From NCBI GenBank assembly GCA_951812525.1, contig OX638316.1, positions 62,001 to 126,000 of the forward strand: 64,000 bases of DNA. The letters are read 5' to 3'. Position 1 is the first letter of the stretch, and each line of letters opens with the position of its first letter. The position numbers and the translations under genes were made by a program. Below the pieces are notes generated by a model that was not told the origin of the DNA, made no database searches, and was given only the letters and a program-made list of their open reading frames with translations. The DNA comes from an uncultured Poribacteria bacterium. Lineage in GTDB: Bacteria; Poribacteria; WGA-4E; WGA-3G. Positions 56,844 through 64,000 of this stretch are shown here, one piece after another.

Positions 56844-59663
56844 CTAGTCCTGTGTCTTTAAACTGCTCCACCTTGTGGTGAGTTTGTCGGATGCTGAGAT
56901 GTCTCCTTTTAAACGAACCGTGGCTAAGGTCTGACGGATACCATCGAAAGAGACATCCTCAATCCGGTAATAGTAGACGACATTCGGTGCAGCTGTTGTA
57001 TCTGTCCACTGATAGTCGTGACGTTCACTGATGGTCCCGTGTCCCGGAATGATACCTTTGAGATTAATAACAGTGAAGCCTTTCTCACGGCTTTCACTCC
57101 TTAGGATATTGAAGCCTGCGTTGTTCAACTCAGATTCTGTTGACCATCTGATAAGCACTTCGCCTGTTTCCATTCGCACTGGACGGAAACTCGATAATTC
57201 TACAGGTAGCGGACCACCCAAACGATAGCCGGGGCTTGCCAAATCATCGCGAACACCATAGAATCTCATACTCAGTCCCTTGGTAGAGAATCGCCGCCAT
57301 CCGTCCGCACTCAGTCCATCGTCGGGCGGATTGGGTCTAGTGTGTACGCTGCTTTGATTTGTTGGTTCAAAAACGCCTCCATATAGCCTCACCACTGACT
57401 GACGTCGTTCGGGATTTATCTTAGGCAAATCCCATATTTTACCTCGTGTGTTCCCTACCACTCCGAGGTTCCCTACCTCATCTATGACTGTCTCATCACC
57501 AATCAGATTTGGATCCCCCTCATCCGTGAGTTTTATATAGAAGGCAGTCGGACTGAGTAAGAGATGAGACCGGCGCGTCAAACCTAACTCACGACGGTGG
57601 GTTCGGTAGAGGTCATATACACGGTTGCTTGGTACATCGGTTGTAGCATTCCCAGAGACAATCAATAGTGTCTGGTTCGGAAGGATGATCGCATCACCAA
57701 ACTCGAAACGCCCGCGTACATACGTTCCTGCCTCGTCGCCAAGGTTGCGAATCTCCAGCTCCCAGCCTTTCAAATTGATGGCTTGCATCATTGAACTGTT
57801 ATAAAGTTCAATCCACTGGACCTTGTTTCGATTGGGACCGGGATCGTACATAATTTCACTGATGCTAATCTCGCCATCAGTCAACTCAAACTCACTGGTT
57901 GGCGTTCTGACGTTTCCATCATCAAATCTTGTCTTAAGGGCGTCATTCTCATATCCGGGCGTGCCGGGTGAAGTCGAAAGATTTGCACCTGGGTTGTAGC
58001 CAAGACCACCTTGAGCCCCGATTTCCTGCCAAGCATCTTTGTGGTGGCCATCATCCGCTTGGTATCGAATGCGTGCCCAAGCGTTAGGTCGAGAGGCAAA
58101 TGTGTTTTCTCCGAAATTAGCAACGTTAAAGGGTATCTGCTGCCCCGCACGGGGCCAGAATCCGGTGCTAAAACCAGAAGAGGTATCAATGAAGAACCCG
58201 TTGCCAGCGTAATCTTGAATTGCTCTATCTTGTCCATTCCGATTCGCTTCGCTTCTGAGGAGGAGGAGGAATCTTCCCGTATTTGGAAGATTAAGCCGCG
58301 TATCGACAAAGTAACTGCGCGATGGTCCTGGTCGGTAGTGGACTTCCTTGCTGATATTGATACCACCCACAATCGGAGTTAACCAAGGGTCTTTGTTAAG
58401 CAGGAGCAAAATCTCGCCAGGGTTCAGTTCATATTTGGGTAGATTAACCAGATCCTTGTCTTTCCCTACACCGGTTACAATGCTCAATTCCCAGTCTTCA
58501 ATTTGAACTGCCCTTGGACTAACGTTTTTCAATTCCACCCAATCAATGTTGTCTCTTGACGTATCGTTGCGGACTTCGTTGATAACAATCACGTCAGAGC
58601 GGACAGGTAATCGGTCCAATCTGCCAATGAAGCCTCCCGTGACATGCTTTGTTCCTGGGGTAGCGATACAAGGGAGTTCTACCGCCTCGGATCCAGAAAC
58701 AATAATCCTTAATTCCGTGTTTCTTCTGCCGTTATCGGGTGTTTCCTCCCAACTGTCAGGATTTGAACCGAATGGAATTCCAGACAATTGTGCATGCCGC
58801 TCTAAGTTTGTGTCTTCAACTATTTTGTAGTTGATGTTTCGATACGCGGAAACGAAGGCAGTGTGAGGTCTTCGTCCACTCGTTCCTGGCAATCTCCATA
58901 AACCGGTAAAAAGCGTGTCGACTGCGTCAAGTACTCGGTAAGTAGCTCCGTTGACTATTGCTATATCGTTCTCTCTCACCGGATAGCTTGCAAAAGGTGT
59001 AAAAAGAAAATAGAGTTCTGCTGTTATTTCTCTGTCTGTGGTATTGTAGAGTTCAATCCACTGTGTCTCTTGGTTCCGGATGTGTGGGATTGTTAGTGTT
59101 ACAGTTGCTGGGTTATTGTGATCCGACGGGCGACTTGGATCGTACCCCCGGTTTGGAACCGTAATTGTACCTTCTGTGTCTTTAAGTGCCCTATCAACGC
59201 CCCACATCATCTCGCTTATGACGAGATCATATCTTTCGAGGTCAGCGTCTTTAGTCGTGAGGAGCTCAAGCGTCCCTCCGAACTCGAAGAACTTTTCTAA
59301 GTCGGGCATCCGGTTTAGACTTCGTAGGATATCGCTTTGTGAGTTTGGTATATGTCGATAGAATACACGTGGGAGAATGCCAGCGTCGTAGGCACCGTTT
59401 CCTTCAAAGTCATCGCATCGAACAAGCTCCCGATTGGGGAGAGGTATAGGAGGGTGTCCCTTACATGCCCGTCCATAGATGACAAAGTTTTGTGAAGGGT
59501 GGTGTCTTTCCTCTATGACTGATTCGTCTGGAAAGAGCGGTATTAATCGCTGGTCTGGAAATTGTGCTATCGCTGTCCAAGGGAAATAGAGAGTAATTAA
59601 AAAAAATAATATTAGGATTTCTAAGAAAAATATAAATTCACGCGATGATTTACGCGTTAACAT
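56844..59663 (-). CDS. Secreted multi-lamin-tail-domain protein with W-tail
   Basis: 939 residues with a signal peptide (about 15-35, EILILFFLITLYFPWTAIA). Three lamin-tail-like domains are visible, each opened by an S-E-[IMV]-M or N-E-V strand: near 130-215 (LVISEMMWG, TQWIELYNTTDREI), near 355-460 (VIVINEVRNDTS, IDWVELKNVSPRAVQIEDWEL) and near 598-690 (ISISEIMYDPG, VQWIELYNSSMMQAINLKGW). Residues 822-920 form a fibronectin-like module (VELSSFRPVRMETGEVLIRW, NAGFNILRSESREKGF) common before sorting signals. The last residues are DKLTTRWSSLKTQD. AAAGGAGA precedes the ATG. Probably an exported surface or adhesion protein. The C-terminal half is nearly repeated in the next gene. Confidence 0.8.
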   Translation of the reverse strand: MLTRKSSREFIFFLEILILFFLITLYFPWTAIAQFPDQRLIPLFPDESVIEERHHPSQNFVIYGRACKGHPPIPLPNRELVRCDDFEGNGAYDAGILPRVFYRHIPNSQSDILRSLNRMPDLEKFFEFGGTLELLTTKDADLERYDLVISEMMWGVDRALKDTEGTITVPNRGYDPSRPSDHNNPATVTLTIPHIRNQETQWIELYNTTDREITAELYFLFTPFASYPVRENDIAIVNGATYRVLDAVDTLFTGLWRLPGTSGRRPHTAFVSAYRNINYKIVEDTNLERHAQLSGIPFGSNPDSWEETPDNGRRNTELRIIVSGSEAVELPCIATPGTKHVTGGFIGRLDRLPVRSDVIVINEVRNDTSRDNIDWVELKNVSPRAVQIEDWELSIVTGVGKDKDLVNLPKYELNPGEILLLLNKDPWLTPIVGGINISKEVHYRPGPSRSYFVDTRLNLPNTGRFLLLLRSEANRNGQDRAIQDYAGNGFFIDTSSGFSTGFWPRAGQQIPFNVANFGENTFASRPNAWARIRYQADDGHHKDAWQEIGAQGGLGYNPGANLSTSPGTPGYENDALKTRFDDGNVRTPTSEFELTDGEISISEIMYDPGPNRNKVQWIELYNSSMMQAINLKGWELEIRNLGDEAGTYVRGRFEFGDAIILPNQTLLIVSGNATTDVPSNRVYDLYRTHRRELGLTRRSHLLLSPTAFYIKLTDEGDPNLIGDETVIDEVGNLGVVGNTRGKIWDLPKINPERRQSVVRLYGGVFEPTNQSSVHTRPNPPDDGLSADGWRRFSTKGLSMRFYGVRDDLASPGYRLGGPLPVELSSFRPVRMETGEVLIRWSTESELNNAGFNILRSESREKGFTVINLKGIIPGHGTISERHDYQWTDTTAAPNVVYYYRIEDVSFDGIRQTLATVRLKGDISASDKLTTRWSSLKTQD

Positions 59664-60004: not shown

Positions 60005-61075
60005 TTAGTCGCGCGATTTTAAACCGCTCCATGTTGTGGTGAATTTGCCAGATGTTGAGATGTCTCCTTTTAAACGAACCATGGCTAAGGTCTGACGGAT
60101 ACCCTCGAAAGAGACATCCTCAATCCGATAATAGTATACGACATTCGGAGCGGCTGTTGTATCCACCCACTGATAGTCGTGGCGTTCGCTGCTGGTTCCC
60201 TGTCCCGGAATGATGCCTGTGAGATTGATAACCGTAAAGCCTTCTTCACGGTTTTCACTCCGTAGGATATTGAAGCCTGCGTTGTCCAACTCAGATTCGG
60301 TTGCCCATCTGATAAGCACCTCGCCTGTTTCCATGCGAATCGGACGGAAACTTGAGAGTTGCACAGGCAATGGACCGCCTAAACGATAGCCGGGTGTACC
60401 GAGATCTTTGCCATCTCCGTAGTATGTCCATCCGACATAGTTTCCGCGGGCTTCCCGCCAACCTTCTTCGTTGGTGCCTTCCAATGGGAAATCCGGCTCT
60501 CCATCAAATTCATCGTAATTCGGTCTGAAGATGTCATCATATTGACGTACCAGTGATCGGCACTGCTCAGGATCTGGTTTTGGTAAGTCCCACAGTTTCT
60601 CTGGATTACTGGGACTTCCAGTGATGTTCCCGACTTCATCCACTATAACGGGATCCTGAAACCGGAGCTGGGGATCCGTCCTGAGTTTAAGATAAAAGCC
60701 GTCTGGATTGAGGAGCAAAGGTCTTCTACCTGTTAGATTTAATGCATTTCCATGTTGTCTGGAAAGATCGTATATGCGGTTAGACGGGACATTATTTGAT
60801 GCTTTCTTAGCAACGAGAAGCAGCGTCTGATTCGGCAAAATTATTGCGTCACCGAATTTTAAATCTCCATCAGCATAGGATCCTCTATCATCCTGAATAT
60901 TGTGGATTTCCAGGACCCAATCTTTAATATTGACCGCTTGGTTTAGCGAACTGTTATAGAGCTCTATCCACTGCGCCTGATTCGCGTCAGCTCCTGGATC
61001 GGACATGATTTCGCTGATGCTAATCTCGCCATCAGTTAACTCGAGATCAGTTGTTCGCGTTCTGAAGCTTCTATC
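60005..61075 (-). pseudogene. 5'-truncated paralogue of the lamin-tail protein
   Basis: The frame from ATG 61006 gives 333 residues, starting inside a lamin-tail domain (MSDPGADANQAQWIELYNSS). The same frame continues upstream without a start codon and still matches the paralogue (RTRTTDLELTDGEISISEI against PTSEFELTDGEISISEI) as far as about 61075, then meets TAG near 61155. The signal peptide and two of three lamin-tail domains are missing. The last 120 residues are almost identical to those of the 939-residue protein, including GGPLPVQLSSFRPIRMETGE and the tail GKFTTTWSGLKSRD. The strong C-terminal identity suggests a recent duplication or gene conversion. Without a signal peptide it is unlikely to be exported. 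Confidence 0.75.
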
Positions 61076-62057: not shown

Positions 62058-62108
62058 GTTGATCCGAACGAAAAACTATCCGCAACATGGGGTGAATTGA
62101 AGAAAAAT
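62058..62108 (+). pseudogene. Orphan C-terminal W-tail fragment
   Basis: In one frame this reads VDPNEKLSATWGELKKN, close to VEADEKLTTTWGEIKTE at the end of the discoidin protein 110 bases upstream. There is no stop directly after it, and the frame is closed upstream by the palindrome. The tail runs across the start of the next gene in a different frame. It looks like the remaining 3' end of a lost gene of the same class. Confidence 0.65.
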
Positions 62109-63114
62109 GACGCATCAGAAACCGTTAGCAATAGGCATTATCGGTGCAGGTAATATGGGGCGACACCACCACAGAGCAGTAGCCGACTACGGTGCCGAGG
62201 TTGTCGCAGTGCATGACATGCGGCTTGAGGCGGCGCGCGAGCTTGCCTCACATGCGGATGCGCAACTTGCCACCACGGCACTGGATGCTTTTTTTGATGT
62301 AGATATGGATGGGGTGGTTATCACAACACCACCTCCTATCCGCCTTGAACCTATCGAGATGGCGTGCGATAGCGGCATTCCTGTGATGGTTGAGAAACCA
62401 CCGGCTTTGAACATGGTTGAAGGTAGAAAGTGCCTTGCCTGTATTGAGAAGGCAGATGTCATCGCTGCCGTTGGGTTTCAACTCCGCTATCATCCGCTTT
62501 ATGAACGGTTGAAGGCGTTAATTGCATCGGAGACGGTGCATTTGGTGCGGACGGCCTGCACTGTTGATTATTACCTCAGTTTTCGGATGTCTCCGTGGTT
62601 TCTTCAGTATGAGATAAGTGGCGGTCCGCTGCCTGAACAGGCGGTGCATGTGTTAGATTGTGCGCGGTTTGTTATGGGGAACCCGAAACCGGTGCAGGCG
62701 CATGCACTGGCGATAAAGAATATGGCTTTGGAACGCACCGAATTCGACGCTGAAAATGCTATCCAGATGACCTATCAATTGGACAACGGGGTTTTCGGAA
62801 CACACATGAACCACTGTGGCACAGAAAAATTTAGCTTCGAGGTCGAAGTTGTTGGACCACATCTACGATTACAAGCGAATATGGTAGAAAACGCTATACG
62901 TGGTTATTTGAACGGCGAACCTATTAGTGAAACGGTGGTCCTCGAAAACGGTTCAAGTTTAGATAAAACTGGAGCATGGCTACGTGCAATTGAAACAGAG
63001 GATAGGACCCTGATCCGCTCGCCTTTTGCCGATGCTCTTCAGACGCTTGCCCTCATTGACGCGGCAGTCCAGAGCCGCGACACTGGTAGGTTTATCCAAG
63101 TGGAGGAATTGTGA
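62107..63114 (+). CDS. Gfo/Idh/MocA family NAD(P)-dependent oxidoreductase
   Basis: 335 residues. Rossmann part with GIIGAGNMGRHHHRAVADYG, then VITTPPPIRLEPIEMACDSG and the family motif MVEKPPALN with its conserved Lys. The C-terminal domain has GGPLPEQAVHVLDCARFVMG (conserved His) and closes with RSPFADALQTLALIDAAVQS. The N-terminal His cluster RHHHR is unusual. Sugar or polyol oxidation is likely; substrate unknown. Its stop overlaps the start of the next gene (TGATG), and GGAGGA within its last codons serves that gene. Confidence 0.88.
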   Translation: MTHQKPLAIGIIGAGNMGRHHHRAVADYGAEVVAVHDMRLEAARELASHADAQLATTALDAFFDVDMDGVVITTPPPIRLEPIEMACDSGIPVMVEKPPALNMVEGRKCLACIEKADVIAAVGFQLRYHPLYERLKALIASETVHLVRTACTVDYYLSFRMSPWFLQYEISGGPLPEQAVHVLDCARFVMGNPKPVQAHALAIKNMALERTEFDAENAIQMTYQLDNGVFGTHMNHCGTEKFSFEVEVVGPHLRLQANMVENAIRGYLNGEPISETVVLENGSSLDKTGAWLRAIETEDRTLIRSPFADALQTLALIDAAVQSRDTGRFIQVEEL

Positions 63115-63455
63115 TGATAGATTGGATGTATTTTCGGAATAGCTGAACGTCGTGTAAAAAAGTGCAAGAGTTTCTTGACACACACAACTTACAAGCAGAA
63201 AATCGCACAGATGCCCGAAAAGAGAAATTGGAGGCAGGGGCGGTATGGGAATTAATGAGCAGTGCAGAACGGATTGTTGTTGCAAAAGGGAGGCGCGTCG
63301 AAACCTTTGTGCCAACCGAAGACGCACAGGAATCCATTCTAAAAGTGGTACTAGGGCGGAGTGGTAGTTTGCGCGCGCCGACAGTGCGAAGCGGCGATGT
63401 CTTCTTTGTTGGCTATAATAACACGCTCTACGAATCAGCAGCACCTTTCGTTTAA
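63114..63455 (+). CDS. ArsC/Spx-family selenoprotein candidate (in-frame TGA at residue 11)
   Basis: 113 residues if TGA 63144-63146 is read as selenocysteine. From ATG 63114: MIDWMYFRNS-U11-TS-C14-KKVQEFLD, a U-x-x-C redox motif exactly where Spx/ArsC proteins have CTSC. The fold continues after the TGA to a C-terminal LRAPTVRSGDVFFVGYN, which matches the L-R-x-P-x-x-x-x-x-x-x-x-x-G-Y-N end of Spx/ArsC proteins. Total length fits the family (about 115). GGAGGA (63102-63107) lies 6 bases before the ATG and the ATG overlaps the upstream stop, so translation must meet the TGA. A hairpin follows at the distance expected for a bacterial SECIS. Family members annotated as (seleno)proteins are known. 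A pseudogene by Cys-to-stop mutation is the alternative. Confidence 0.8.
63152..63185 (+). promoter_or_regulatory. SECIS-like hairpin downstream of the TGA
   Basis: GTG (63162-63164) and CAAG (63165-63168) pair with CTTG (63174-63177) and CAC (63179-63181), leaving a bulged A and apical loop AGTTT with G as second base. An outer GTGT/ACAC pair (63152-63155, 63182-63185) extends it across an A6 internal loop. The loop begins 22 bases after the TGA, inside the 16-37 range I recall for bacterial SECIS models. Confidence 0.55.
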
Positions 63456-63475
63456 ATCTGTAAGGACAGAAATTG

Positions 63476-64000
63476 ATGCCAATCGAAAAGATTCTAATTA
63501 CGGGGGCAAACGGATATTTAGCACAATTCATTATTGACCGGTTGCACAGCACGTATCAACTGACGCTAACAGACATTACTGAACCGGATCGTGCTGTTCC
63601 AAACACAACTTTTATCAAGGCGGATGTGACAAATCCTGCCGAAATTGAGGCAGCGTGTGCGGGACAGGATGCTGTTGTGCACCTGGTTGCTTTGGTCCGG
63701 GGACGGTCTGGTAAACCTGCTTCGTTATTTGCGGATGTTATGGTGAAAGGCACATGGAACGTTGCGGAAGCCTGTGTGCAGCAAGGCGTGCAAAAATTGG
63801 TGAACATTTCGAGTATTTCGGCATGCCATCCTGCTCCGGGTGCAAAATTACCGTATCAGGTGGGCGGTGATTTCGTGTTTGGTCCCGGAGATCTCTACTA
63901 TTCGCTGGCGAAGTACCTCGGTGAGCAGATTGGTGCGGCGTATCATCAGGCGCACGGGTTGGACGTGATTCATGTTCGTCCTGGTGTTATTGCCGGAGAT
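63476..64000 (+). CDS. NAD-dependent epimerase/dehydratase (extended SDR), 5' part
   Basis: 175 residues from ATG 63476, running off the window. The dinucleotide motif is ILITGANGYLAQFI (G-x-x-G-x-x-x). D-V-T-N-P and VVHLVALVRG follow, then NISSISACHP (active-site Ser) and the Y-x-x-x-K pair in YYSLAKYLGEQ. HVRPGVIAGD is the usual substrate-side motif. It belongs to nucleotide-sugar epimerases and related reductases. AAGGAC precedes the ATG. It follows the selenoprotein candidate by 20 bp in the same direction as the Gfo/Idh/MocA gene, so the three may form an operon. Confidence 0.9.
   Translation, partial: MPIEKILITGANGYLAQFIIDRLHSTYQLTLTDITEPDRAVPNTTFIKADVTNPAEIEAACAGQDAVVHLVALVRGRSGKPASLFADVMVKGTWNVAEACVQQGVQKLVNISSISACHPAPGAKLPYQVGGDFVFGPGDLYYSLAKYLGEQIGAAYHQAHGLDVIHVRPGVIAGD

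Follow-up and report, generated by a model that had tools for sequence, protein, structure and literature searches.

The gene at positions 63114-63455 of the window, the 64,000-nucleotide stretch from an uncultured Poribacteria bacterium analysed here, is in our assessment a working selenoprotein gene, in which the UGA at 63144-63146 is read as selenocysteine (Sec) and the product is a small thioredoxin-fold protein, most likely a thiol/disulfide-type oxidoreductase (estimated probability about 0.93). The assessment is built on computational observation of the reading frame, the conserved UGA, the downstream hairpin, the Sec machinery, the protein family and the fold class. An earlier sequence-only reading had proposed a probable selenoprotein, a proposal supported by the family match, the conserved TGA, the SECIS hairpin and the Sec machinery described below. 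The features of the locus are as follows.

62107..63114, plus strand: Gfo/Idh/MocA-family oxidoreductase, the upstream neighbour (Pfam PF01408, PF02894)
63102..63107, plus strand: Shine-Dalgarno-like GGAGGA, 6 nt before the ATG (read directly)
63114..63455, plus strand: ArsC/Spx-family selenoprotein coding sequence (NF041106), complete, 113 residues plus TAA (NF041106 match, pN/pS)
63144..63146, plus strand: in-frame TGA at codon 11, the U of U-T-S-C (conservation and alignment with the redox Cys of Spx)
63153..63155, plus strand: Cys at codon 14, putative resolving thiol of UxxC (Cys in 53/54 aligned members)
63162..63181, plus strand: bacterial SECIS hairpin, GUGCAAG, loop AGUUU, CUUG-A-CAC (folding and comparative support)
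63473..64000, plus strand: NAD-dependent epimerase/dehydratase (SDR), the downstream neighbour, running off the window (Pfam PF01370, E 5.2e-22)

The start codon, read directly, is the ATG at 63114-63116, the A of which is also the final base of the TGA stop (63112-63114) of the upstream gene, giving a 1-base overlap. GGAGG- or AAGGA-type sites before the ATG are also found in relatives with different upstream DNA. The TGA at codon 11 is followed by T-S-C, and the frame stays open onward to the TAA at 63453-63455, with G100-Y101-N102 near the C-terminal end of the read-through protein. These coordinates agree with the sequence-only reading, which had placed an ATG 6 bases downstream of GGAGGA and overlapping the previous stop, a TGA at codon 11 before T-S-C, and a frame continuing to a G-Y-N end. 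That plain annotation would cut or drop the gene is borne out as well, as standard ORF calling yields only a 97-residue ORF from the GTG at 63162. A search for other read-through genes in the 64-kb window gave three mechanical candidates, none of them convincing, and a search for a viral or plasmid origin of the region returned no matches. Elsewhere in the window, two adjacent large ORFs on the minus strand (56844-59663 and 60005-61006) share a near-identical C-terminal part (around LSSFRP...RMETGEVLIRW) and appear to be tandem duplicates.

The TGA is kept in all 59 sequences of the comparison set and lies at codon 11 in every one of 28 related loci (27 from Poribacteria and one from a Desulfobulbaceae genome). 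Matches occur in 71 of 85 Poribacteria genomes, with exactly one internal TGA in 71/71. Of the 395 genomes searched from Desulfobacterota, to which the Desulfobulbaceae genome belongs, 28 score over the cut-off, again with one TGA in each (28/28) and, in the loci read individually, at codon 11. Random stops and frameshifts in relatives had been put forward as the pattern that would speak against the gene; what the relatives carry is a single TGA at the same codon in a gene free of other internal stops. Calculated over 47 distinct Poribacteria sequences, pN/pS rises from 0.14 in codons 2-10 to 0.21 in codons 12-24 and 0.25 in codons 25-69, so the residues ahead of the TGA are themselves under protein constraint, at least as strong as that on the remainder. 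The locus combines a conserved in-frame UGA with coding constraint on both sides, as expected of a bacterial selenoprotein gene. In a profile search of PDB sequences the redox Cys of Bacillus subtilis Spx aligns at residue 11, in keeping with the earlier suggestion that the TGA stands in place of a catalytic Cys.

After a 15-nt gap from the UGA, the transcript can form the hairpin GUGCAAG-AGUUU-CUUG(A)CAC, which has one bulged A and carries a G in its loop. The earlier placement of a hairpin 22 bases after the TGA holds for the apical loop (63169 or 63170), which lies 22-23 nt after the UGA, but not for the stem, which starts 15-16 nt after it (63162). The published model of bacterial SECIS elements specifies an apical loop of 3-9 nt, a stem of 4-16 bp, a G as the first or second loop nucleotide, a distance of 16-37 nt between UGA and loop, and a minimum free energy (MFE) of <= -7.5 (PMC13188914). 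The hairpin here falls within the constraints on loop size, stem, G, spacing and MFE: its loop is GUU or AGUUU with the G first or second, its stem has 7-8 bp with one bulge, its spacing is 22-23 nt, and its MFE is -9.5 kcal/mol for 47 nt (only -7.0 for a short 30-nt piece alone).

Strong support for the SECIS element comes from comparative evidence and not from the stability of the single hairpin, which is no greater than expected by chance (z -0.99; 39 of 200 shuffled sequences fold at least as stably). A hairpin with the apical-loop G at the same position occurs in 50/50 distinct sequences, and in divergent members the stem is re-formed from different base pairs, such as GCUCAAG/CUUGAGU (locus L052) and GCGUCCA/UGGACGC (L100 and L103). 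Synonymous differences amount to 0.12 in codons 15-24 compared with 0.42 elsewhere (Mann-Whitney p 4e-5). When sliding windows are compared with synonymous shuffles, a clear folding excess is confined to those that begin 1-16 nt past the UGA, and it is seen in both phyla. An alternative hairpin, overlapping and excluding the SECIS hairpin, can be drawn at 63145-63174 and in relatives (e.g. AAACUC.UGCA / UGCA.GAGUUU around an AAAAAA run); in many Poribacteria it is the structure of lowest energy predicted when the sequence is folded from the UGA onward.

The host genome (G000), a single contig of 5.06 Mb, encodes tRNA-Sec (78 bits, UCA anticodon, confirmed by ARAGORN) directly adjoined by selB, together with selA (594 bits) and selD (358 bits), all four over curated cut-offs. 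The absence of this machinery, which the sequence-only reading had named as an outcome that would overturn it, is therefore not seen. The host selD likewise encodes a selenoprotein, its own in-frame TGA lying in CAGUASK (L049:1429-2526; G000:C1 about 3914052-3914975). Among the 71 Poribacteria genomes carrying the ArsC/Spx-family gene, 62 have selA over the cut-off. Six of the other nine have selB (G062, G078, G027, G035 and G015) or tRNA-Sec (G049) over the cut-off, in G061 selA is present only in fragments spread over separate contigs, and no selA, selB or tRNA-Sec was found in G030 and G033 (81% and 73% complete, respectively). Two further genomes, G003 (76% complete) and G004, have neither this gene nor over-cut-off selA, selB or tRNA-Sec, and possibly represent a lineage without selenocysteine.

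The read-through protein matches the NCBIfam model NF041106, 'ArsC family (seleno)protein', with 123.7 bits (E 4.6e-36; curated cut-off 85 bits) over profile positions 1-107 of 107, which places the earlier ArsC/Spx-type assignment within a defined family. The same model is matched by 54/54 diverse aligned members, among which W4, Y6, R8, residue 11, A34, G81, G84, L86, R87, P89 and G100 are invariant. Codon 14 encodes Cys in 53/54 and Ser in 1/54 of these; the exception (L105:1477-1818) has the motif UASS, the resolving Cys being replaced by Ser and the TGA retained. Models of Spx, arsC_related and glutaredoxin score far under their own cut-offs, with 20-23 bits for the Spx/MgsR models against cut-offs of 75-152 (23 bits versus 75.05 for TIGR01617 and 152 for NF009885), and Pfam ArsC (PF03960) and Glutaredoxin are likewise sub-threshold. 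One Desulfobacterota genome also contains a second ArsC/Spx-like frame (L111:1486-2037), with TGA in CWQKU-TTC and a score below the NF041106 cut-off, which is probably another UxxC selenoprotein family.

The AlphaFold2 model of the protein has a pLDDT of 92, and Foldseek against the PDB retrieves Spx structures first, followed by ArsC-like and glutaredoxin-type structures, at a TM of about 0.5, a modest similarity. The PDB sequence profile search pairs Sec11 and Cys14 with both Cys residues of CxxC in Spx, and LRAP with the Spx LRRP. Sec insertion itself, the catalytic cycle and the kind of substrate are inferred. The SECIS hairpin just after the UGA would hold SelB carrying Sec-tRNA(Sec) at the ribosome, so that the UGA would be read as selenocysteine. 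The predicted product is Spx/ArsC-like, one small domain of the thioredoxin fold whose active site reads U-x-S-C; in it, Sec11 would serve as the attacking selenolate and Cys14 as the putative resolving thiol. Two invariant residues of the LRAP motif, Arg87 and Pro89, may complete the active site, Pro89 presumably being a cis-Pro like its counterpart in the thioredoxin fold. Most likely the protein reduces a small molecule or another protein by way of a selenenylsulfide, in the manner of glutaredoxin or ArsC.

The closeness to Spx raises the question of whether the selenoprotein is a redox-sensing, RNA-polymerase-binding regulator rather than an enzyme. Spx is the best neighbour in the PDB by both sequence and structure, with its CxxC aligned to the UxxC; against this, its models score far below their cut-offs, and the HMMER alignment has a gap where Spx carries its 'tedg' loop. 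That loop holds the glycine that contacts the C-terminal domain of the RNA polymerase alpha subunit. Because the loop is missing from the alignment, a Spx-like regulator is less likely than a thiol/disulfide oxidoreductase, and we regard it as unlikely. That the protein is a genuine arsenate reductase whose reactivity is raised by selenium is less likely still and would surprise us: the sub-threshold PF03960 match places the protein in the same broad family by Pfam, and such proteins are named arsenate reductase-like in the literature (PMC13188914), but hhalign with E. coli ArsC covers 25 columns only, at a probability of 0.5% and without significance, the motif is UxxC where E. coli ArsC has C-G-T-S, and no ars genes adjoin the gene, whose neighbours are the Gfo/Idh and SDR genes.

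The 97-residue ORF found by standard calling could be taken to mean that the locus is a pseudogene or that the true protein starts after the TGA, at the GTG at 63162. Residues 1-10, with W4, Y6 and R8 invariant, are however constrained at least as strongly as the rest, and the TGA is kept in all relatives without further lesions; we consider this reading very improbable and reject it on the protein constraint at codons 2-10. General reassignment of TGA to a sense codon such as Trp or Gly, for which no supporting evidence was found, is the most far-fetched of these explanations. Of the 41 long ORFs in the window, 9 end in TGA, among them that of the preceding gene, so TGA also serves as an ordinary stop here, which rules general reassignment out; moreover, Spx has Cys rather than Trp or Gly at the aligned position.

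As for its surroundings, the selenoprotein gene is in Poribacteria usually flanked by a Gfo/Idh/MocA oxidoreductase gene (52 loci) on one side and an NAD-dependent epimerase gene (51 loci) on the other, and this Gfo/Idh, selenoprotein and SDR neighbourhood occurs at none of the Desulfobacterota loci. Two genomes from a different Poribacteria family (G025 and G026; L113:1711-2232 and G026:C268:30043-30357) have the selenoprotein gene about 45-47 bp downstream of selA. In the two phyla searched, the 98 members scoring over the cut-off include no Cys form of the NF041106 protein. This count and the position directly after selA in two Poribacteria genomes hint that NF041106 might be a branch of the Spx/ArsC fold that is Sec-obligate, with selenium not replaceable by sulfur, and that it might sense or handle selenium or the redox state, an idea that we offer tentatively and at low probability.

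ArsC-like selenoproteins have been on record since 2005-2008 (PMC1088965, PMC1794560, PMC2398784), comprising an ArsC-like selenoprotein with UxxS in the Sargasso Sea set (PMC1088965), an 'ArsC-like' selenoprotein in Desulfotalea psychrophila (PMC1794560) and 'Arsenate reductase 2', UxxC, cd03032, in the GOS set (PMC2398784). A 2026 review lists NF041106 (ArsC_rel_Se_1) as the known family 'Arsenate reductase-like protein, UxxC' (PMC13188914) and credits it to the 2008 GOS study (PMC2398784). Since the ArsC-like UxxC family is already catalogued, the gene described here belongs to a known kind. SelA and SelB co-occur in sponge symbiont bins (PMC5649159), and our search for literature on Poribacteria selenoproteins found no paper. 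We did not find reported the near-universal occurrence of the gene in one order of Poribacteria, its conserved neighbourhood or the lack of Cys forms in two phyla. Gene calling under the standard code truncates or drops a gene present in nearly every genome of that order; correct annotation would give Poribacteria, a phylum with many sponge symbionts, a conserved protein predicted to be a selenium-dependent redox protein. As a family that apparently does not use Cys in the two searched phyla, it also offers a clear place to test the need for selenium.

Compared with known systems, the protein differs in no kind from NF041106, with which it shares the full-length match, the UxxC motif and the in-frame UGA with a downstream SECIS. 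Spx/MgsR (TIGR01617; PDB 1z3e, 3gfk) has the same fold class, place of the redox motif, LRxP motif and VG(Y/F)N end; by contrast, the protein here has Sec for the first Cys, is shorter, appears to lack the 'tedg' loop and scores far below the Spx cut-offs. The glutaredoxin-coupled ArsC (E. coli arsC) has in common with it a short N-terminal strand, the catalytic Cys/Sec and a helix, and is set apart by a single Cys in place of UxxC, by the absence of a significant alignment and by its ars operon. The YruB/NrdH glutaredoxin-like and Uxx-star (seleno)proteins share the thioredoxin-fold N-terminal segment with its Cys/Sec and a resolving residue three places on, but span only about 75-90 residues, whereas the protein here adds an ArsC/Spx-type helical insert and the C-terminal LRAP...VGYN.
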